Origin: a bacterium
GTDB taxonomy: Bacteria; SM23-31; JAUVVT01
NCBI GenBank assembly: GCA_030616165.1
Contig: JAUWXV010000004.1
Span: 1-40,164, forward strand
Direction of reading: 5' to 3'
Length of the DNA: 40,164 nt
The notes under the pieces were generated by a model that ran no database searches, was not told where the DNA came from, and saw nothing but the letters and a program-made list of their open reading frames with translations. Made by a program: the position numbers and the translations under genes. Within the stretch, counting starts at the first letter, position 1; each line of letters opens with the position of its first letter. Shown here piece by piece: positions 4,673-33,830 of the stretch.

Positions 4673-5656
4673 TCAAGAATATTGTGAAGTGACTTTTTGA
4701 TAAACATTATCCTTAATTAAATACCAAACAGGTTTTTCAGTATTGGGACGAATACTTGTATAACATTTCCCACAAGTATTATTTTTTGTAAAATCTTTCA
4801 CGATTTCATCCTGAGATTTACAATGTGCTGTAATTAATCCGCAAGGTGATAAGGTACCATCCGGATTCACAATTAAAAATCTTTCACCTGCACGACAGTC
4901 AGAACGGAAACCGTTTTTAAAATAAGTAACCATATTCTTAAAGCTATATTCGGATGTATAGATTGTATTGTTTCTCTTCCTCAAATCCAAAACTTGTTTA
5001 ATTATTTCCTTAAATTCTTCCAGTTCTTCCTTTGAAAGCATGTAATCTTTGTTGCCTGTTCTAAGTGGTGTATAAGCACTAAAACTGATTGTGACATTCC
5101 ACTTTTTAGCTAATTCAACCAATTGAACCATCTCTCTAAAATTATCACTTTGTAATACACAGGCGATGTTAATTGCTTTATGATTTTCTGAATCAAGAGA
5201 CTTTATAAGTGTTTCAATATGTTTGAAGAGTCCAGGGACCTGTCGGAATTTGTCGTGACGCTCATCAGGATAATCTAAAGAGATTGAGAATCTGTTCGCT
5301 CCACCTTCTAAGAGTTGGAAGTATTTCTCTTTTGTCAAGAGCACACCATTGGTTGTTACTATGATATAAGGAGCCCTATTCGGAATTCTTATAGCTTTCA
5401 AAATTTGTTCAAAATCCCTGCGTAGCAAAGGCTCACCACCGGAAAGTTGTGCAATAACAGGCTTGATTTGACTGCAAATTTCACCATATATTTGGGCTGA
5501 AGCTCTTTCTTCATCAACCGGACCTCCCAAGTGGCAGTGTTTGCATCGGGCATTACATTTATAAGTAATCTCAAAAGAAACACAAATTGGACTTTTTAAA
5601 AAATAACTTCTAAACCCGCGATTTAGGTACGAAAGAAAGTGTGTTACAGAATCCAT
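4673..5656 (-). CDS. Radical SAM/SPASM domain protein
   Basis: CNARCKHC motif, 'LSGGEPLLRRDF', C-terminal cysteines (CRAGERFLIVNPDGTLSPCGL...CGKC). Confidence 0.85.
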   Translation of the reverse strand: MDSVTHFLSYLNRGFRSYFLKSPICVSFEITYKCNARCKHCHLGGPVDEERASAQIYGEICSQIKPVIAQLSGGEPLLRRDFEQILKAIRIPNRAPYIIVTTNGVLLTKEKYFQLLEGGANRFSISLDYPDERHDKFRQVPGLFKHIETLIKSLDSENHKAINIACVLQSDNFREMVQLVELAKKWNVTISFSAYTPLRTGNKDYMLSKEELEEFKEIIKQVLDLRKRNNTIYTSEYSFKNMVTYFKNGFRSDCRAGERFLIVNPDGTLSPCGLITAHCKSQDEIVKDFTKNNTCGKCYTSIRPNTEKPVWYLIKDNVYQKVTSQYS

Positions 5657-6026: not shown

Positions 6027-6938
6027 ATGTTCAAAGAAATGGACCGTAGGAAATTTTTAAAAAGTTCCGCAGTTATTCCTGTTGTAGCAGCGGCAGGTTT
6101 GAGCATCAAAGGGGATAAAAGTTATTCCCAGACAAAGATAAAAAGGGTAGGAAGTCCAAGTCTTAAGGTAAGTTGTTGTGCATATTCGTATCGTCAGTAT
6201 TTGACAAAAGGTAAATGGACACTCGATAATTTTTTGGAAACTGCGGCAGAGTTAGGATTTGATGGAGTAGAACTAACTTCTTATTATTTCCCAAATTATC
6301 CAAATAGGCCTGATGATGAATATCTTTGTCACATTAAGCAGAAAGCATTTTTACTTGGACTTGATGTAAGTGGGACAGCGGCTCGAAATAATTTCTGCAA
6401 CCCTGATAAAAATAGAAGAAAAGAGGATGTAGAAGATGTTAAAATGTGGATGGAATGTGGAGCAATGTTTGGGGCACCTGAAATACGAATATTCGGTGGA
6501 AATGGTATCCCCAAGGGACATACTGAAGAGGAGGCAACTGAATGGGTAGCAGAATGTTTAAAAGAGTGTGCTGACCATGGAGCAAAATATGGTGTAATGG
6601 CTGCATTGGAAAATCACGGTGGTTTTCCTGAAAAGGCTGAACAGGTATTAAGGGTATTAAAAATGGTTGATTCGGATTGGGCTGGCGCAAATCTGGATAC
6701 TGGCAACTTTAGGAGTGATGACCCTTATAAAGAGATAGAAGAAGTTGCCCCATATACTATTACCTGTCATGTTAAAGTAAGCTTAAGAAAGGGAGTAAAA
6801 GCCGACATGGGAAGGATTGTTGATATACTTAAAAAAGCGGGTTATAGAGGACATCTTCCAATTGAATACGAGGAAAAAGAAGACCCAATAACAGGGGTGC
6901 CAAGGTTTCTTAACGAAATTAAAGAGGCTATTGGTTAA
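6027..6938 (+). CDS. Tat-exported sugar phosphate isomerase/epimerase-like TIM barrel protein
   Basis: DRRKFLKSSAV twin-arginine motif; 'FDGVELTSYYFP', 'ALENHGGFPE', 'GANLDTGNF', 'HLPIEYE' are typical of AP endonuclease family 2/xylose isomerase-like barrels. Confidence 0.8.
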   Translation: MFKEMDRRKFLKSSAVIPVVAAAGLSIKGDKSYSQTKIKRVGSPSLKVSCCAYSYRQYLTKGKWTLDNFLETAAELGFDGVELTSYYFPNYPNRPDDEYLCHIKQKAFLLGLDVSGTAARNNFCNPDKNRRKEDVEDVKMWMECGAMFGAPEIRIFGGNGIPKGHTEEEATEWVAECLKECADHGAKYGVMAALENHGGFPEKAEQVLRVLKMVDSDWAGANLDTGNFRSDDPYKEIEEVAPYTITCHVKVSLRKGVKADMGRIVDILKKAGYRGHLPIEYEEKEDPITGVPRFLNEIKEAIG

Positions 6939-10030: not shown

Positions 10031-12682
10031 TTAGTCAACTTTTATTATTTCAATATTTTTGTTTGGGCATCGCCATACACAAACTCCACAGGCAACACAT
10101 TCTTCGTTATCAATAAAGGGTCTCCCTTTGACATTACTTACAGCAAAAGAATTGCAGACATCAACACATAAAAGGCACCCTTCACCGCAACCGCAGTTCA
10201 AACATCTTTTTGCCTCCACAATGGCCTCTTCTTCCGTAAGTGTTCTGCTGTAAATATCGAAATTCTTTCTTCTCTCTTCCGGACTTTTTGTATAAATCTT
10301 AATGCTGGAAATTCGTTCAACATTTCCTGTTCTTTGAAGCACGCTGTTTCTATTAATCTCGTTTAACTGTTTCATTGAATCCAGTATGGAGTTTTCACCC
10401 GATATATATTTATCCACAGAAATCGCTGCTCTTCTCCCGCTGGCAACTCCCGTTATTATATTACTTGCGCCAACAGCCGCATCTCCAGCAGCAAAAACAC
10501 CGTCGATATTAGTTTTACCTGTTTCTGGAACATTTTCAATTATTCCTGTCGAAGTGAGCTTTAAACCATCATAACTTATGTCGCTCTCTACTCTTTGACC
10601 GAGTGCAGAAATAACTGTATCAACTTTAAGGGTGAATTCAGTTCCCTCAACTTCTACTGGTCTTCTTCGATTGGATAAATCCTTTTCACCTAAAACATAG
10701 TTCACAAGTCGAATTCCAATAACTCTGCTATCTTCTGTTAATATTTCCTTCGGTGAAACCAAATACATTATATTTACCCCTTCTTCTTCGGCTTCAATAA
10801 CCTCTTCCGGGATAGCAGGCATTTCGTCTTTAGTCCTTCTATATAATATAAAGACCTCTTTTGCACCTAATCTTCGACAGGATCTTGCAGCGTCAACCGC
10901 AGTAAATCCTCCCCCGATGACTGCAATTCTCTCTCCAATTTTATATTGTTTACCATTTGACAAATCTTTTAGAAAATCGAGTGCAGGTAAGCATCCATCC
11001 GCCGATTCTCCGGGAATATTGAGATTAATACCCTCCTGAGCACCTACCGCTATTATTATCCCCTTATAACCTTGTTTTTTCAGTTGGGGAATTGTAAAAT
11101 CTTTAAGAAATCTTTTTCCCGTTATAATTTCAACCCCCAATTCCTTAATTATATCAATTTCGTAATCGATTATGTCCAGAGGGAGTCGGAATCTTGGGAT
11201 TGCATATCTCAGCATTCCACCGGGCTTGTCTTCTGCTTCAAAAACCGTAACATCATAACCAGCAACCGCAAGGTAATATGCCGAAGAAAGTCCAGCAGGA
11301 CCTGATCCAATCACCGCTACTTTATCAGATTTTTTACTTGCTGTCGTAATTTCAGGTTTCCAGTTGTTTTTTCTTGCATATTCAAGAACAAACCTTTTAA
11401 CTTCCCTAATTTTAATGGATTCATCAATGTCTCCTCTGATACAAACCGATTCACAAGGATGGTGACAAACATATCCACATATCGATTGAAATGGTCCTGC
11501 AGAGACTATGAGGTCGTATGCCTCTCTAAAATCTCTTTTTGAAACTGCCATGACATAACCTTGTGCAGGAACGAAGTTCGGACAGGAAGTTACACAAGGG
11601 GCTGAAATTGTAGTATCTTTAATCTGAGCATGTCCCTCAAATATAGTCAGTTCTTCGGCAGATTTCAGTTTTTCAACGATTTGACCCCTTATCTCATCCA
11701 ATGAAGAATAGCCCATTTCTTCTAAATAAAATTTTAAATCCTCAATCAGGTTTCCAAGAAAACCATAACCGCTGATAATGGTTTCTGTGCATATTCCGAA
11801 GAGGTTAGCCCCCATCAATGCCATCTTCACCACATCGCGAAAACTTCTAATCCCTCCAGTAGCGGCTATAATGGGCTCCTTGCCGAGTAGTTTTCTCATT
11901 TCATAAGTATCTCTTAGAGCAAGGGGTTTGACCCATTCCCCTGAAAAACAGGATAGACTTATTTCCTCCTGGAGTGCATAGGGTGCCTTTCCGGGGTGAT
12001 ATATATCAAATGGCGGTATAGCCAATCTGTTTGCGGTTCCACTGACCGCATCAGCACCTGCATCGATACAGGCTTTTGCTACTTGAGCTATTTTTCCACC
12101 CTCAGGCGTTAACTTAACAAATACCGGAATTGAAACCATCTCTTTTACTACTTTTGTTATGTAGCTCACTGCTTCTGCATCCTGCCCCAGACTTGCACCA
12201 GTTTTAGGACTATCGGTATGTGCCTCACCTGACAATTCCACGTTAAATGACATATTCGGACAGCACATGTTTAATTCAATAATATGAGAACCCGCACTTT
12301 CAAACCTTTTTGCAAGTTTTCCCCAGCCCTCTTCTACACCCTTTTCACCGGCATAGGCTATGTTTGCGAAAATAATAAGTTCTGAAGTCTTTTTTCTTGC
12401 CTCTTCAACAAGTCTCAAACCTTCATCAGGAGTCAATCTTTTCTCGGCTGTAAATGCAAAAATACCCTTGTTTGAAAACCAGCCGTACCTTGGTTCTCTG
12501 TTGATGTATGGTGCCGGGTCAATTATCAGTTTTATGCTTGCTCCACCCCACCCGCATTCCTCTGCCTTAATAATCTGCTTAATATTTTTTGTTGTTGGTC
12601 CAGAAGAGATATAAAATGGATTGCGAAATTTTACTCCTTTTACTGAAATTGGATGAAAATAGAATATTTCTTTATCTTTCAT
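10031..12682 (-). CDS. Fusion protein: dihydroorotate/dihydropyrimidine dehydrogenase-like FMN barrel + Fer4_20/FAD-NAD(P) oxidoreductase (PreT/GltD-like) + C-terminal 4Fe-4S
   Basis: N-terminal 'VKFRNPFYISSGP...LNMCCPN...AATGGIRSFRDVVKM'; middle 'CVTSCPNFVPAQGY...CGYVCHHPCESVCIRGDIDESIKIREVKRF' and 'VAVIGSGPAGLSSAYYLAVAGYDVTVFEA'; C-terminal 'CVACGVCVWRCPN'. Confidence 0.88.
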   Translation of the reverse strand: MKDKEIFYFHPISVKGVKFRNPFYISSGPTTKNIKQIIKAEECGWGGASIKLIIDPAPYINREPRYGWFSNKGIFAFTAEKRLTPDEGLRLVEEARKKTSELIIFANIAYAGEKGVEEGWGKLAKRFESAGSHIIELNMCCPNMSFNVELSGEAHTDSPKTGASLGQDAEAVSYITKVVKEMVSIPVFVKLTPEGGKIAQVAKACIDAGADAVSGTANRLAIPPFDIYHPGKAPYALQEEISLSCFSGEWVKPLALRDTYEMRKLLGKEPIIAATGGIRSFRDVVKMALMGANLFGICTETIISGYGFLGNLIEDLKFYLEEMGYSSLDEIRGQIVEKLKSAEELTIFEGHAQIKDTTISAPCVTSCPNFVPAQGYVMAVSKRDFREAYDLIVSAGPFQSICGYVCHHPCESVCIRGDIDESIKIREVKRFVLEYARKNNWKPEITTASKKSDKVAVIGSGPAGLSSAYYLAVAGYDVTVFEAEDKPGGMLRYAIPRFRLPLDIIDYEIDIIKELGVEIITGKRFLKDFTIPQLKKQGYKGIIIAVGAQEGINLNIPGESADGCLPALDFLKDLSNGKQYKIGERIAVIGGGFTAVDAARSCRRLGAKEVFILYRRTKDEMPAIPEEVIEAEEEGVNIMYLVSPKEILTEDSRVIGIRLVNYVLGEKDLSNRRRPVEVEGTEFTLKVDTVISALGQRVESDISYDGLKLTSTGIIENVPETGKTNIDGVFAAGDAAVGASNIITGVASGRRAAISVDKYISGENSILDSMKQLNEINRNSVLQRTGNVERISSIKIYTKSPEERRKNFDIYSRTLTEEEAIVEAKRCLNCGCGEGCLLCVDVCNSFAVSNVKGRPFIDNEECVACGVCVWRCPNKNIEIIKVD

Positions 12683-20111: not shown

Positions 20112-22289
20112 ATGTTATCACATATTTTACGAAGAAAAAGGGAATTTAAATACTTAATATTAATTGTATTATATTCTCTGGTTTTTGCCTGTGACGGAAA
20201 GAAAGATAAATTTGAATTTTTTGAGATTGATGGTAGTTATATCTGGTTTAGAAACGATATTATCAAGCTTCGGATTGACAATAAAATGCTTATGAAAGTA
20301 TATTTTAAAACTGAAAAAATGGGACAATCTTTAAATATAGCAGAACCGGAAGAGTTTTTATCAAAACCCCCTCATTATGTTACTGTGAGCGGAAGAGAGG
20401 TAAAAAATTTTAATTTGATATCTGAAAAACCTCAAATTTCATATATTACAGGCAATTTTGGTTCAGGTAAAAGATTGATATTAAGAGGTATTACGGATGA
20501 GTCAGAGAAAATTAAAATAGAAAAGAGATTGATAATAGAACTCTACGAAAAATTTCCTGACACTGCGATAATGTATGTGGTATATAAAAATCTTGAAGAT
20601 TATAGAACAATAACTATAGAAAAGATATATAGTAATAGTTTCAGACTTGATGCATCATTGGTGAATAAAATGGATGAGCCGTATGATTTCTGGTCGTTTC
20701 AGGGCATTTCAGAATTCAATGGTGATTGGGTTGTAAAGATTACTGAAAATTTTTCGAGAACTAACTACTGCGGCACAAGGAGAATAGTCGGCAGCAACTC
20801 TGCGTATACCAGTGGACAAGGAATACCATTAGTGGATTTATGGACAGAAAGAATGGGAATGGCAGTAGCAATGATTGAGTCAGAACCAAAAATTGTGAGT
20901 TTCCCCGTAAATGTTGAATTTGATAAGACAGTCAGGGTCAGCGTTTTAGAAGAGCCGAAAGTAAAACTCAAACCAGGAGAAAGTTTTCAAACTTTTAAAT
21001 ATGCTGTAATTGTCCATAAACTTGACTATTTTGATACACTGAAAAGGTTAAAGGAATTACTTACAGTTCAGGGTTATACTATAAGGAATGCACCCCAGAT
21101 TGCTTATTATCCGTACTGGTCAACTCAAGGTTTTGGAAGTAATTTTATGCTAAATAATATATACGATAATTTTTCACAATTGAATAGACTTGGTATAGGC
21201 TGGATTGTTATAGATGAGGGTTGGTATAATCGGTTCGGAGACTGGATTCCTGTTAGGAAAATCTTTACTTCAGGTGAAGAGAGCGTAAAAGAGATTGTTT
21301 ATTTGATTCATAAGAACGGATTTAAAGCGATGCTCTGGTGGGTTCCCTTTTCGGTTCATATTGGTTCATTGATTGATAAAGAACATCCGGATTGGTTTAT
21401 ATTAAACGAAAAAGGGGAAAGGGAAGAAAGTGGTTGGGGTTCTTATTATATTTGTCCTGCTCATCCAGGAGTAAAAAAATATACAGTTAATCTTATTAGA
21501 AAGTTCATAAATGATTGGGGATTTGATGGATTTTATCTTGATGGGGCTTGTTTAAATTCTGTTCCATTTTGTTATACTGCAAATCATAATCATCCCTCTC
21601 CAACAGAATCGCTAAAATCTTTATCTGATTTTTTCAAAATTATATATGAAACATCGATTGATATTAAGCCGGATTTTGTAATAAAAGTGAGTCCGGATGG
21701 GATTTGCCCTTCAGTTTATAATATGTTCCAATACAATATGCCAGTTGTCGGCAGTCCGAACACAAGATTTCAGTTAAGAAGCAGGATCAAGGCGCTAAAA
21801 GCATTTTTTGAAGAAAAAGCACCAGTTGATTGCGATTACTACGAAGAAGGAATTCGGGATTTTGCTTCCTGTGTTGCCCCTGGCGGAGTGATATCGGTTA
21901 AATTCACAACCCTTAACCCCGATGATACAGATATACTAATAAGAACCGAGCCGAACATTCCCAAACCTACAAAATATACTGAAATGATTTATGAAAGATG
22001 GTTTACAATATATAGAGAAAAAAAATTATATAATGGAGAATATCTGAATCTTTATGATATAGGATTTGACAAACCAGAAACACATTTGATAAAAAAAGGA
22101 GAAAAATTTTATTACTCGTTTTTTTCAACATTCTGGGATGGTAAAATTGAATTAAGAGGTCTGGAAAAGAAAAGATATCAGGTGAGAGATTATATTCGTA
22201 ATGATGATTTGGAGAGTGTTAAAGGACCAGAAGATAATATTGAAATCGGATTTAAGGAATTTTTACTTCTTGAACTTACTCCGAGATAA
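20112..22289 (+). CDS. GH36/melibiase-like alpha-galactosidase, probable lipoprotein
   Basis: 'WIVIDEGWYNRFGDW', 'GFKAMLWWVPF', 'WGFDGFYLDGACLN' catalytic TIM-barrel motifs; 'SLVFAC' lipobox. Confidence 0.75.
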   Translation: MLSHILRRKREFKYLILIVLYSLVFACDGKKDKFEFFEIDGSYIWFRNDIIKLRIDNKMLMKVYFKTEKMGQSLNIAEPEEFLSKPPHYVTVSGREVKNFNLISEKPQISYITGNFGSGKRLILRGITDESEKIKIEKRLIIELYEKFPDTAIMYVVYKNLEDYRTITIEKIYSNSFRLDASLVNKMDEPYDFWSFQGISEFNGDWVVKITENFSRTNYCGTRRIVGSNSAYTSGQGIPLVDLWTERMGMAVAMIESEPKIVSFPVNVEFDKTVRVSVLEEPKVKLKPGESFQTFKYAVIVHKLDYFDTLKRLKELLTVQGYTIRNAPQIAYYPYWSTQGFGSNFMLNNIYDNFSQLNRLGIGWIVIDEGWYNRFGDWIPVRKIFTSGEESVKEIVYLIHKNGFKAMLWWVPFSVHIGSLIDKEHPDWFILNEKGEREESGWGSYYICPAHPGVKKYTVNLIRKFINDWGFDGFYLDGACLNSVPFCYTANHNHPSPTESLKSLSDFFKIIYETSIDIKPDFVIKVSPDGICPSVYNMFQYNMPVVGSPNTRFQLRSRIKALKAFFEEKAPVDCDYYEEGIRDFASCVAPGGVISVKFTTLNPDDTDILIRTEPNIPKPTKYTEMIYERWFTIYREKKLYNGEYLNLYDIGFDKPETHLIKKGEKFYYSFFSTFWDGKIELRGLEKKRYQVRDYIRNDDLESVKGPEDNIEIGFKEFLLLELTPR

Positions 22290-22485: not shown

Positions 22486-22532
22486 ATCCTGACTTATTCA
22501 TAAAATTTGAGAGTAGTATAATTTGTCATTTC
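22486..22532. repeat. Intergenic repeat family copy
   Basis: ATCCTGACTTATTCATAAAATTTGAGAGTAGTATAATTTGTCATTTC, similar to 17991-18034 and 34482-34511. Confidence 0.7.
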
Positions 22533-22640
22533 GACCGGAGTCCCCCGAGTACTCGGGGGACGGAGTGTCCGCCTTTGGCGGAGAGAAATCTCAAAAGAAG
22601 AGATGTCTCGTCCCGATGGTTCGGAATAGACATGACAAAT
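22521..22640. repeat. MITE-like palindromic element
   Basis: Terminal inverted repeats ATTTGTCAT (22521-22529) / ATGACAAAT (22632-22640); internal 22-nt perfect palindrome GTCCCCCGAGTACTCGGGGGAC (22540-22561) and hairpin TCCGCC-TTT-GGCGGA (22568-22582). Confidence 0.75.
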
Positions 22641-22759
22641 TGAGATATGCACAATTATTTGTATTTATATGAGTTATAAACCACAAAAAGAATATTTATG
22701 AATTATTCAGGTTATTTAAGTTAATTATTAATTAAAGGGCCTTATTGTTAAGGGCATTG

Positions 22760-23707
22760 ATGAGAATACTGAGTTTCAAATCATCTATGGTTGGGTTGGT
22801 CCTGACCTATTTCATGGCTCAAGTGCTCCCGGCGCAGCAAATTGGGGATGTGAACTTCAATCCGTCGATAGACAATCCAGCCTATCCTCAAGGGGAAGGC
22901 CCGGTGGTGCTCATCGATGAGGCTCATCACAATTTTCACACCGTAAATGGTCGCTATCAAGCATTCGCCGACTTGCTTCGACGAGATGGTTATGTGGTAA
23001 AAGGATTGGCATCCAAGTTCACTTTAGACGCTCTCCAGACAGGGGATATTTTAGTGATCTCAAACGCCCTTGCCGAGGCCAACGTAGAGGACTGGAGTTT
23101 GCCCACTTCTTCTGCCTTTAATGAAGCGGAAATCACAGCGGTCCAGAGGTGGTTGAATGGCGGTGGTTCCCTGCTGCTGATTGCAGATCACATGCCTTTT
23201 CCGGGTGCGGCTGCCCAGCTTGCAGAGAAGTTTGGTCTTCTGTTTAGCAATGGTTATGTCCTCCATGTCGACTCTAATTCTGGCCCTATGAAATTCCGGT
23301 TGAAGGATGGATCACTTCAAGACCATCCAATTACTCGTGGTCGTAATCCAACTGAAGCGGTGAAGTTCGTTACTACTTTTACAGGGCAAGCGTTTCGGAT
23401 AGAGCCAGGAGTCAGTGCTCAATCTCTCATGATCCTCGATACAAAGTCGGTTCTCATGTTTCCATTGGAAGCTGGGGGAGTTTCTGAGAAAACCCCCCGT
23501 CTCTCGGCGGCTGGCATGCTGCAAGGAGCCGCATTGCGCCTGGGTGCTGGTAGCGTGGCGGTGTTTGGTGAAGCGGCAATGTTTACGGCGCAGGTGTCTG
23601 GACCAGAACGCAGACCGATGGGTATGAATCATCCCGAAGCTCCGTACAATGCCCAGTTTGTTTTAAATGTACTTCACTGGCTCTCGGGATTGCTTCCTGA
23701 TAGATGA
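22760..23707 (+). CDS. Exported DUF4350/GATase-like-fold protein of unknown function (compositionally foreign)
   Basis: Signal peptide-like N-terminus ending 'AQVLPAQQ'; 'GPVVLIDEAHHNFHTVNGRYQAFADLLRRDGY', 'NGGGSLLLIADHMPFPGAA'. Visibly GC-richer than its neighbours. Confidence 0.65.
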   Translation: MRILSFKSSMVGLVLTYFMAQVLPAQQIGDVNFNPSIDNPAYPQGEGPVVLIDEAHHNFHTVNGRYQAFADLLRRDGYVVKGLASKFTLDALQTGDILVISNALAEANVEDWSLPTSSAFNEAEITAVQRWLNGGGSLLLIADHMPFPGAAAQLAEKFGLLFSNGYVLHVDSNSGPMKFRLKDGSLQDHPITRGRNPTEAVKFVTTFTGQAFRIEPGVSAQSLMILDTKSVLMFPLEAGGVSEKTPRLSAAGMLQGAALRLGAGSVAVFGEAAMFTAQVSGPERRPMGMNHPEAPYNAQFVLNVLHWLSGLLPDR

Positions 23708-23717
23708 AAAGGGATGG

Positions 23718-23792
23718 CCCTCTAATCCGCGGTTCAAGCGGACCGAAACTCGCTACGCTCGTTTCGACAGATTAACCGCCAGCCGATACGGG
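23718..23792 (+). other. attC-like recombination site (candidate)
   Basis: GCGGTT-c-AA (23729-23737) pairs with TTAACCGC (23772-23779), leaving an extrahelical C; inner stem CGAAAC/GTTTCG; outer CCC...ATC pairs with GAT...GGG. Confidence 0.5.
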
Positions 23793-23816
23793 TAAAAAAG
23801 GAGAAGAGATTATTTA

Positions 23817-26099
23817 ATGATAACTGGACTTAAAACATTGAAGAGCATTTTTTATTTATCCATAAAGATATTTTTTATTCTTTCAGTCTCAGCATTTTAT
23901 GGATATTCCGCACAGGATAAGATAGAAGTTTCCGCTCAAGAGTCAGAATCTGATGAAAGGAAGATAATTTACGTCAAAAAGGTTAATTCATCCATTAAAA
24001 TAGATGGAATTTTAGATGACCCTGAATGGGAAGAAAGTATTCCTTCGAGTGGTTTTATTCAGCAGGAACCGCGTGATAAAAGCCCTGCAACAGAAAAAAC
24101 GGTTGTAAGGGTCATCAGGGATGATGATAATCTTTATTTTGGCATAACCTGTTATGACAATGAACCTGATAAAGTAATTTCAAATGAGATGAGGCGCGAT
24201 GCATCATTGTTCAATAATGATAATATTGAAATATTTTTAGACACATTCAATGATAGGAAGAACTGCTATTATTTTCGGACAAATCCTGCAGGGGCGAGGT
24301 ATGACGCAATGATATCAGAAGAGGGGAAGAACGTGAATTATGACTGGAATACTATATGGAGATGCAGTGCAAAAAAGAGTGATACTGGATGGACAGCAGA
24401 AATTGCAATTCCTTTTTATGCCATAAGATTTAAAGAAGATTTAGACAACTGGGGTGTTAACTTTGGCAGAGAAATCAGAAGAAAGAATGAAAGGACTTTT
24501 TGGTCATATATTCCACGCGGACTGGGAATGGGCGGAAAATATCGAGTTTCACTTTATGGAAATATGGTCGGTCTCGAGGGATTATCTAAGGGTAAGAATG
24601 TTGAGATTGTACCTTACGCTAATGGTGGAAAAACAACAGAATATGCTCCGAATAAATCTTCCTCAGACTTTGATGGAGGTGTAGATATTCTTTACAGGAT
24701 AACCGGTAATTTGAGGGCGGACTTTTCTTTTAATACTGATTTTGCTCAGGTAGAAGCAGACCAGGAGGTAGTTAATGTGTCACGGTTCAATCTGTTTTTT
24801 CCCGAAAAAAGGGATTTTTTTCTTGAAAATGCGGGGCTTTTCCAATTTGGAGATGTGGTTCTTTCCGAGAGGGCATCTGGTGGAGGCGGAGGTGGGAGGG
24901 TTTCTTCATCAAGTTCAAGTCGTCAGAGCGGATATTTATTGTATTACAGCAGAAGAATAGGATTAAAAGAGGAGGAAAAGATTCCACTTTATGGAGGGAC
25001 GAAGTTAGCAGGTAAAATAGGTAAAAATTCAATCGGTTTTATGAGCATGCAGACTAAAAAGAAACAATTATCAGAGGGGGAGACAGAACCCACAACAAAT
25101 TATACTTCATTAAGGATTAAGCATGATGTATTAAGGAATTCAAGTATTGGTATGATTTTTTTGAATAAACAGAGTTCTTATGAAAAATACAATCGTGCAT
25201 TTGGAATTGACGGGAATTTTCCTCTCACTACTTCATTTACTATGGGGGGCTCAATTGCAAAAACTTTTACTCCGAATGTTAAAGGAAAGGATTATGCAGA
25301 GACATTTTTTATGGACTTTAGAACCGACGTCTTTTCATGGAATGTAAAATATCTAAATCTTGGTGATAATTTTAATCCCGAAATGGGTTTTGTTAGAAGG
25401 GATAACATAAGAAGCACTTATGCTACTGCCACTCTCAACAAATGGATTAACAAGTATGGTCTCAGGAATTTCAGATTTTATACTTCATTTAACTATGTTA
25501 CCGATGATAAAAATATCCTTGAAACAAAACGTTTATCAGGAAGTTTATATACAATATTTTCTTCTGGTGACTACTTGGGATTTGGTGTTTATCGCAATTA
25601 TGAATTTCTTGATGAGAATGATGACATAAGAGATATTTTGATTCCATTGGGAGATTATAAATACGACACCTTTAATTTATTTTACAGTTCAGACCACAGC
25701 AGGGTGTTAGCTGGTGGGATAAGGTATAATTTTGGTGATTATTACGGGGGTAAAAAAAGGACATTTTCACCTCACTATCATTTCAGACCCACGCCGCACT
25801 TTAATATGGATGTAAATTACGATTATAATCATGTTATACTTCCAAATGGATATTTTTATTCCAATGTATTAAGCAGCAGGATAACATACATGGTTAATCC
25901 TGATATGTATATTAAAACCTACATACAATGGAATGACCTTGATAATCAACTTTCTGCAAATATTTTGTTTCATTATATTTATAATGCTGCAAACAACTTT
26001 TATATAGTTTACAACGAAAATCGCAATCCCGATACCCCAAGAATAGACCTCAGAGACCGTGTATTAATGGTAAAATTCGTATATCATTTGTTTATATAA
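23817..26099 (+). CDS. DUF5916 protein: N-terminal CBM9-like domain plus predicted beta-barrel
   Basis: 'SIKIDGILDDPEWEESIPSSGFIQQEPRDKSPATEKTVVRVIRDDDNLYFGITCYD', 'FSFNTDFAQVEADQEVVNVSRFNLFFPEKRDFFLENAGLFQFG'. Confidence 0.85.
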   Translation: MITGLKTLKSIFYLSIKIFFILSVSAFYGYSAQDKIEVSAQESESDERKIIYVKKVNSSIKIDGILDDPEWEESIPSSGFIQQEPRDKSPATEKTVVRVIRDDDNLYFGITCYDNEPDKVISNEMRRDASLFNNDNIEIFLDTFNDRKNCYYFRTNPAGARYDAMISEEGKNVNYDWNTIWRCSAKKSDTGWTAEIAIPFYAIRFKEDLDNWGVNFGREIRRKNERTFWSYIPRGLGMGGKYRVSLYGNMVGLEGLSKGKNVEIVPYANGGKTTEYAPNKSSSDFDGGVDILYRITGNLRADFSFNTDFAQVEADQEVVNVSRFNLFFPEKRDFFLENAGLFQFGDVVLSERASGGGGGGRVSSSSSSRQSGYLLYYSRRIGLKEEEKIPLYGGTKLAGKIGKNSIGFMSMQTKKKQLSEGETEPTTNYTSLRIKHDVLRNSSIGMIFLNKQSSYEKYNRAFGIDGNFPLTTSFTMGGSIAKTFTPNVKGKDYAETFFMDFRTDVFSWNVKYLNLGDNFNPEMGFVRRDNIRSTYATATLNKWINKYGLRNFRFYTSFNYVTDDKNILETKRLSGSLYTIFSSGDYLGFGVYRNYEFLDENDDIRDILIPLGDYKYDTFNLFYSSDHSRVLAGGIRYNFGDYYGGKKRTFSPHYHFRPTPHFNMDVNYDYNHVILPNGYFYSNVLSSRITYMVNPDMYIKTYIQWNDLDNQLSANILFHYIYNAANNFYIVYNENRNPDTPRIDLRDRVLMVKFVYHLFI

Positions 26100-32024: not shown

Positions 32025-32861
32025 ATGAAAACTAAAAAAATGTCATTTATTCTAATAGGTTTACTTATAATATTACTCCAGATGAGTATATTAGGGCAGG
32101 CAAGTGCCCAGGAAGATATTACCCAGTGGAGAAATAAGACAATAATGTGGGTTGGACCACATCAAGATGATGAGGGCGGGAGTATGGGGACGTTGGCGAT
32201 GCTTCAGGCAAATGGTAACAAAATTGTTCTCGTACTGTACACAACCGGTAATAAAGGTTCCAGAGACCTTGAGATGACAAGCGAGAGACTTGCTCAGATA
32301 AGGAGAAAAGAAGATGCAAATGCAATGAGAGAACTCGGAATACCAACGGAAAATTACATCTGCCTTGGATATGATGATGGAATGCTCGAGTACGTTCCAA
32401 AATTAGAACTAACTGAGAAAATTTGCAGGCTGATAAGACAATACCGTCCGGATGCAGTGTTTACTATGGACCCTGGTACTACCTGGATGCGGTGGCATAA
32501 AACAGACCATCGTTCTTCGGCTTTCATTACTCTTGACGGTGCACGTGCCGCCGCTTATCATTTATATTTTCCGCATCATAGAATCTATGAAGGATTACAA
32601 CCTTTTACTGTAAGAGATTATTTCTTTTATAGCACTCGTGAATCTAATTTTAAAGTAGATATTACTGAATTTAGTGAAAATAAAATCAGAGCTCGTTCCT
32701 GGTATGTAAGTCAATTCGGAGCAGGTAATTTTAAATATGTAGGTCCAGAACCAGACCAAGAAAGACTTAATCAACAATTGAAACGCAATGCCGATAGAAT
32801 AGCTAAAGGTGAAAGAATATCTGAAAATTTCAGGAGACTCTCAAGTTCGATGTCGTTCTGA
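32025..32861 (+). CDS. PIG-L family deacetylase, exported
   Basis: Signal peptide (LGQASAQ); 'VGPHQDDEGGSMGTLAML', 'WHKTDHRSSAF'. Confidence 0.88.
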   Translation: MKTKKMSFILIGLLIILLQMSILGQASAQEDITQWRNKTIMWVGPHQDDEGGSMGTLAMLQANGNKIVLVLYTTGNKGSRDLEMTSERLAQIRRKEDANAMRELGIPTENYICLGYDDGMLEYVPKLELTEKICRLIRQYRPDAVFTMDPGTTWMRWHKTDHRSSAFITLDGARAAAYHLYFPHHRIYEGLQPFTVRDYFFYSTRESNFKVDITEFSENKIRARSWYVSQFGAGNFKYVGPEPDQERLNQQLKRNADRIAKGERISENFRRLSSSMSF

Positions 32862-32888
32862 TATATTCTTTTGAAGTTTAAAAAAATA

Positions 32889-32928
32889 GCAAATAGAATT
32901 AATAAATTTCATCTACTTTGCATTTTTT
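32889..32928 (+). terminator. Imperfect intrinsic terminator after first PIG-L gene
   Basis: GCAAATAGA / TCTACTTTGC with one bulge, followed by ATTTTTTT. Confidence 0.5.
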
Positions 32929-32966
32929 TGGTAGGTCATACCAACAAAAATAAGGAGTAATTTCTT

Positions 32967-33830
32967 ATGAAAATTAAAAATTTTATTATTGTCAGTTTAC
33001 TGATAATAATACTGCCTTTGAGTCTTTTTGGGCAGGAACAAAAGCAACTATCGGATAGAGGTCAGGTTCGTGAACGGAATCCAGAAGATATAAATGACTG
33101 GAGGGGAAAGACTGTGATGGTATTTGCACCGCACCCTGATGATGACCTTTCACCTGCAGGAACAATGGCAAAACTCGTTGAAAATGGTAATAAGGTTTTT
33201 ATAGTAGTTTATACAAGCGGGAATAAGGGTTCAAGAGACCTTGAAATGACAAGTGAAAGGCTTGCCCAGATAAGGAAACAAGAGGATATAGCGGCAAATA
33301 AAATATTAGGGATTCCGGAAGAAAATATTATCTGGTTAGGATATGATGACGGGATGCTTGAGTATGTCCCTGAAAAAGAACTCTGTGAAAAGGTATGCTA
33401 TCTTATAAGGAAATATCGCCCGGATGCTGTGTTCTGTCATGACGCTGGTACTGACTGGATGCAGTGGCATAAAACTGACCATCGTATGTCGGCTTTCATA
33501 ACTCTTGATGGGGCGCGTGCTGCGGCGTATCATTTATATTTTCCGCATCATAGAATCTATGAAGATCTACAGCCCTTTACTGTAATGGACTATTTCTTTT
33601 GGGGTTCTCATGAGCCCAATTACAATGTTGATATTACAGATGTCATAGAACTTAAATTTGAAGCAGCATGTCAGCACGTGAGCCAGTTTGGTAAAGGAAA
33701 TTTTAAATACACTGGACCTGTAATGGACACTGAAGATAAGGAAAATATAAGAAAACGATATATGAGAAAAGAACCTGATGGAAAGATGTATGAAAGATTC
33801 AGAAGACTTCAAGGATCACGATCTTTCTAA
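32967..33830 (+). CDS. PIG-L family deacetylase, exported (paralog of 32025-32861)
   Basis: Signal peptide; 'FAPHPDDDLSPAGTMAKL', 'WHKTDHRMSAF'; extended identity to the upstream paralog. Confidence 0.9.
   Translation: MKIKNFIIVSLLIIILPLSLFGQEQKQLSDRGQVRERNPEDINDWRGKTVMVFAPHPDDDLSPAGTMAKLVENGNKVFIVVYTSGNKGSRDLEMTSERLAQIRKQEDIAANKILGIPEENIIWLGYDDGMLEYVPEKELCEKVCYLIRKYRPDAVFCHDAGTDWMQWHKTDHRMSAFITLDGARAAAYHLYFPHHRIYEDLQPFTVMDYFFWGSHEPNYNVDITDVIELKFEAACQHVSQFGKGNFKYTGPVMDTEDKENIRKRYMRKEPDGKMYERFRRLQGSRSF

Follow-up and report, generated by a model that had tools for sequence, protein, structure and literature searches.

Introduction

The landing of cassettes outside integrons is a known event, though one that is seldom caught; insertion at attG sites was described by Loot et al. 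2024 (Nat Microbiol 9:228-240, doi 10.1038/s41564-023-01548-y), as cited in PMC12901181 and PMC12444791, and cleavage at GAT is documented in secondary-site reactions on the account in PMC10127599. Moreover, genes that bear an attC without a linked integrase are known as CALIN or single-attC CALIN, in the IntegronFinder terms used in PMC9024848.

Here we analyzed a window of 40,164 nucleotides, contig C125 of MAG G000 (3.74 Mb, 343 contigs, 90% complete), and focused on a GC-rich block between two resident genes, which a sequence-only reading had proposed as a candidate orphan cassette inserted by an integrase. On balance we lean to a similar view: the block may be a single integron cassette, inserted by an integron integrase at a non-integron (attG-type) site between resident genes, with an attC that has since decayed. 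This is the best-supported reading because the block is missing in a relative, its attC-like end coincides with a composition edge, the genome carries other attC cassettes and a Shewanella homologue is itself a cassette; the recombination reaction, the enzyme and the exact crossover are what we infer.

Results

Composition and edges of the block

The block occupies 22748..23785 on the forward strand (the 3' limit may be 23782), and we treat it as a putative single gene cassette on the grounds of its composition edges and its absence from the syntenic locus of the relative G001. The letters quoted in the sequence-only reading agreed with the window when read directly. With a length of about 1.04 kb and 50% GC, the block is set in DNA of about 33% GC; the GC fraction rises from 0.22 upstream (22641-22747) to 0.505 in the gene and 0.58 in the tail, and falls to 0.29 just past it. 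The change-point fit, which omits an unrelated dispersed GC-rich repeat at 22515-22650, placed the left edge at 22734-22752 and the right edge at 23781-23811, and the abrupt shifts claimed at 22747 and 23785/23786 both lie within these intervals. As had also been claimed, the block is a compact unit of one gene, with one ORF (22760-23707) beginning 12 nt inside it. The GC3 of this gene (0.48) is the highest among the 26 ORFs of the window, and the non-coding tail (23708-23785) is likewise GC-rich. We found no DNA match in the plasmids searched, no CGCGGTTCAAGCGGACCG in viral contigs and nothing relevant in Rfam; GTTCAAGCGGACCG occurs once in the genome. The repeat at 22515-22650, about 100 bp left of the block, is palindromic (TTGTCATTTCGACCGGAGTCCCCCGAG...), has 52 matches in the genome and is probably a MITE or REP-like element.

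Flanking genes and the relative G001

Both flanking genes were assigned by Pfam and are syntenic in G001: the left one (20112..22289, forward strand) belongs to the Melibiase/DUF6259 family and is glycoside-hydrolase-like, and the right one (23817..26099, forward strand) is a CBM9/DUF5916 gene. The AAGGAG ahead of the downstream gene is left intact by the insertion, which shifts the former upstream region of that gene about 1 kb away. Elsewhere in the window, two adjacent similar LmbE/PIG-L-like deacetylase genes lie at 32025-33830, as judged from ORF translations.

G001 belongs to the same family but to another genus, and its genome is 70% complete. Its orthologues of the two flanking genes (72-75% nucleotide identity) stand in the same order, about 200 bp apart, with AT-rich DNA and no block between them; no homologue of the block gene was found in this 70%-complete genome. 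Since G001 keeps both flanking genes adjacent without the block, we favour reading the block as an insertion relative to G001, unless G001 lost it. G001 alone cannot tell gain from loss, and gain is favoured because of composition and the protein tree below. A relative with an uninterrupted target, which the sequence-only reading had proposed to look for, was thus obtained in part: the block is missing in G001, but the intergenic DNA there is too diverged to align with the window junction, and the empty site cannot be read.

The encoded protein and its homologues

The gene (22760..23707, forward strand) encodes a DUF4350-like protein of 315 aa that seems to have a signal peptide, according to the ORF, Pfam and an alignment of homologues; the signal peptide was judged by eye from the N-terminus. 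Homologues are spread over many phyla. Pfam DUF4350 was matched by 26 of the 36 aligned members, with a weak match for the window protein itself, and 28 columns are invariant among the aligned members, including D-E-x-H-H-N-F-H from residue 53 and D-H at 143. No NCBIfam family was found for the protein; its weak Pfam matches let us guess at a fold like that of class I glutamine amidotransferases.

The window protein forms a group with two proteobacterial MAG sequences (99/93) in a tree of 72 sequences; Gemmatimonadota are close by, and the AT-rich paralogue of its own genome falls elsewhere. This paralogue is 49% identical to the block gene and lies on contig C118 of G000 (L108, 2776-3719). 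Because the tree places the protein with proteobacterial sequences, away from this paralogue, the block gene was probably acquired. The C118 paralogue adjoins a protein-kinase/TPR-like gene.

Homologues inside cassette arrays had been proposed as a further check, and one was found: in Shewanella sp. OPT22 a homologue with 42% identity lies in a cassette array (L061), between attCs at 4923-4977 and 6254-6310, and this genome contains several integron integrases. In a planctomycete (L035), the homologous gene is directly preceded by an attC-like site. At the other homologue loci searched, the two nearest (L026 and L028) included, no attC was found. The block gene draws attention to an uncharacterised protein family that is carried in a cassette by Shewanella and, with less certainty, by a planctomycete.

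The attC-like 3' end

The tail reads CTCTAAT-CCGCG-GTT[C]AAGCGGAC...GATTAAC-CGCCAG/CCG on the forward strand. Alignment with known attCs and a scorer delimited an R''-like, non-canonical box CTCTAAT (23720..23726) and, together with a covariance model, an L'' arm GTT[C]AAGC (23732..23739) whose extrahelical C is at 23735; the scorer and the covariance model gave the L' arm GATTAAC (23770..23776), with outer pairs that run on to 23779. Real attCs share with the tail an R''-L'' spacer of five nucleotides, the TTAAC arm, the motif of L'' and the extrahelical C, while the R'' box and the broken inner L pairs are flaws. The arms GCGGTT-c-AA and TTAACCGC with their single extrahelical C are present as described earlier, and the suspicion of non-canonical R boxes in a perhaps degenerate site was well founded, R'' being CTCTAAT instead of YYYAAC. 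A hairpin at about 23744-23766 was considered as an intrinsic terminator and rejected, as no T-run follows it.

The attCs gathered for scoring came from Shewanella arrays, related genomes and class 1 integrons. An initial rule-based finder gave too much noise, with 4352 candidates over 1.34 Mb (both strands). Two covariance models built from more uniform attC sets, R1 (R'/R'' paired) and R2 (R' omitted), gave no match at the site, and a third, more diverse model matched exactly on L''-L', weakly, at 7.6 bits. We trained a scorer that combines position weights and pairing on 31 attCs, with the tail site left out; over both strands of the window, the site took the first rank among 13,181 G positions. 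Its score was reached by 2 of 3000 dinucleotide shuffles of the tail and by 7 of 333,118 positions in homologue loci, and at least one of these 7 has the look of a true attC. An earlier, smaller position-weight scorer, which omitted the conserved extension after L'', had ranked the site 29th and 115th of 13,698, and 10 of 400 tail shuffles reached its score, so the strength of the attC signal depends on the training set. Because the extended scorer was built after these weaker results, we take the support for an attC as moderate. The fold of the bottom strand, also proposed as a check, went against expectation, being no more stable than shuffles (z -0.64).

With moderate confidence, then, the 3' tail may be regarded as a worn attC. 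The earlier claim of an attC at this end has in its favour the top rank with the broad scorer and the weak third-model match, and against it two blank covariance models; a lack of any attC model hit, named beforehand as grounds for giving the claim up, was found with the standard-type models, whereas the diverse model hit weakly at the exact place. If the cassette reading is true, worn attC sites can escape attC models.

Junctions and crossover

The left edge G|TTAAGG (22747..22753, forward strand) is R'-like, and G|TTAAGGGC can be paired with GCCCT(c)TAAT across R'', at the cost of one bulge and one wobble. Equally good R'' pairing occurs at 0.6% of the 691 GTT sites of the window, and at 0.14% when equal R'-likeness is also demanded. 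This complementarity between R'' and an R' remnant at the 5' edge is confounded by a possible ribosome-binding site that overlaps the edge: AAGGG, just before the ATG, resembles a Shine-Dalgarno sequence, and the R'-likeness may therefore have another cause. In a blind scan the pair of edges ranked 11 of 317 candidate pairs, and it gains weight from agreement with the composition edges, not from this rank.

On the right, the crossover may lie at G23782|CC, from the spacing of the training attCs, or at G23785|AT, from the G|WT rule and the report of GAT cleavage (23782..23787, forward strand). The G|AT edge preferred by the sequence-only reading satisfies that rule and GAT cleavage is known, but it implies an L'-R' spacer of 8, whereas the 31 training attCs, with few exceptions, have 5 or 6, and normal attC spacing would favour G23782|CC. 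Since spacing favours one point and the G|WT rule the other, we leave the crossover at either G23782 or G23785. The reconstructed target CTTATTG|ATACGGG was not borne out, because the G001 intergenic DNA is too diverged and spacing favours G23782; the uninterrupted target would read ...CCTTATTG + ATACGGG..., or ...CCTTATTG + CCGATACGGG....

Other cassettes in the genome and the integrase search

Cassettes with attCs are also present on at least four other contigs of G000, namely C172 (L114), C204 (L120), C233 (L113) and C311 (L121); the attC counts come from searches over a limited set of scored candidates and are lower bounds. On C233 a canonical attC of 60-62 bits is followed by a second cassette, and on C204 an attC accompanies a TIR-like gene. 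The genes on C172 are exonuclease and PDDEXK-like, and the array on C311 includes a SIR2-like gene next to pilus-assembly-like genes. The names on C204 and C311 are readings of the ORFs, profile scans having covered the cassette genes of C172 and C233. Several of the cargo genes on these four contigs (TIR-like, SIR2-like, exonuclease, PDDEXK-like) look like defence genes. A further candidate, C40:43350, was discarded as a chance match inside a seemingly coding gene.

No integron integrase over the curated cut-off was found in the MAG (90% complete) or in five other searched genomes of its class, and the matches below the cut-off look Xer-like. The block locus is not an integron, having ordinary genes on both sides and no integrase over the cut-off in its MAG.

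Several other observations concern these loci. C233 has another attC-like site (GCCTAACAATTGGCTGGAGCTGACCG...G|TTATGCG; L113 6289-6416), which stands apart from the array at 11665. An AT-rich promoter-like stretch (TTATTATTAAATATTAAT...AATTTACTTGACTTT...AGTAAGTTA) is common to the left flank of the C204 cassette (L120, about 15400) and to L114 5050-5140, after the C172 cassettes; it may be a repeat that brings a promoter with it or serves as a site of insertion. At L121 2874-2962 (minus strand) and L116 (about 2015-2100), the R' box that closes the C311 array (G|TTCTAGGACACAATACTAATTATTG) was seen to run into GGGACACAATACTAATTATTGAC; the latter sequence is also found near the C204 cassette and looks like the beginning of a REP-associated transposase element. 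Moreover, the loci L122-L136 of G005 and G006, one of which is a genome of the same class, contain many diverse attC sites, some seemingly with hybrid R' boxes.

If the lineage has cassettes at five or more scattered places, several apparently single and with hybrid R' boxes, off-target integration might rank among the chief ways in which these bacteria gain genes and be no rarity, an idea that we consider rather doubtful; the integrase would perhaps act from a transient plasmid. In any case, that cassettes are scattered through a lineage which seems to have no integrase is a more interesting lead than the block itself.

Discussion

If the block is an orphan cassette, its arrival can be outlined as follows. 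A circular cassette, made up of the gene and its attC, would present the folded bottom strand of the attC; the integrase would cut at the G|TT of the R' box and join it to a double-stranded, G|WT-like genomic target. The inserted cassette would then begin with TTAAGGGC and end with the attC up to a G, and the R' box would become a hybrid with the target sequence. As no integrase was found in the 90%-complete MAG, we infer its action, and the source enzyme would have been lost or be missing from the assembly.

Two other histories of the block deserve weight, each of them unlikely in our estimate. The block could be all that is left of an earlier array, a CALIN shrunk to one cassette, its boxes worn by deletion and mutation. 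The genome does have arrays without a detected integrase, such as those on C311 and C233, and CALINs are thought to be degraded integrons, on the account in PMC9024848; the locus, on the other side, holds one attC-like site and one foreign gene only, with resident DNA adjoining both edges. The gene could also have arrived by another kind of horizontal transfer, with a tail that resembles attC by chance. The covariance models, which give nothing or little, the modest rank of the edge pair in the blind scan (11 of 317) and the position of most homologues outside cassettes are in keeping with such a transfer, but the top attC-like site of the window sits at the composition edge, positions elsewhere with as high a score number about 7 in 333,118, and other cassettes are present in the genome.

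That the gene was resident and has been lost from G001 appears very improbable: a single relative cannot separate gain from loss and an AT-rich paralogue exists on C118, yet the GC-richness extends into the non-coding tail and the protein groups with proteobacterial sequences, not with that paralogue. An assembly or binning artefact, conceivable in a MAG of 343 contigs, is still harder to credit, both flanks being within one 40 kb contig with the gene order of G001.

A natural, probably old cassette outside an integron, in a bacterium not yet cultured, together with a syntenic relative that lacks it and further cassettes in the same genome, would show that cassettes can leave integrons and settle as ordinary genes. 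The Shewanella sp. OPT22 chromosomal array holds the homologue as a cassette too, but there the array is a true one, its attCs are good and the genome has integron integrases. The tail shares with the attCs of class 1 cassettes (aadA, dfr and catB types) the GTTCAAG motif of L'', the extrahelical C, the TTAAC L' arm and the 5-nt R''-L'' spacer, and differs from them in its R'' box (CTCTAAT, not YYYAAC), its broken inner L pairs and, for a crossover at G|AT, the length of its L'-R' spacer (8). Like a CALIN, the block is an attC-bearing gene without a linked integrase; its one attC-like site, however, is too degenerate for two of the three models that we built, and the default definition of at least two clustered attCs without an integrase describes C311 and C233, not the block. 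In the insertions at attG sites (Loot et al. 2024), too, one cassette comes to lie in ordinary DNA of the chromosome and the 3' junction bears a hybrid R'. The block differs from them in being natural and seemingly old, and in that its attC is decayed and no integrase was found. CALINs, single attCs and off-target cassette insertion are already known, and the block is a new, degenerate example.
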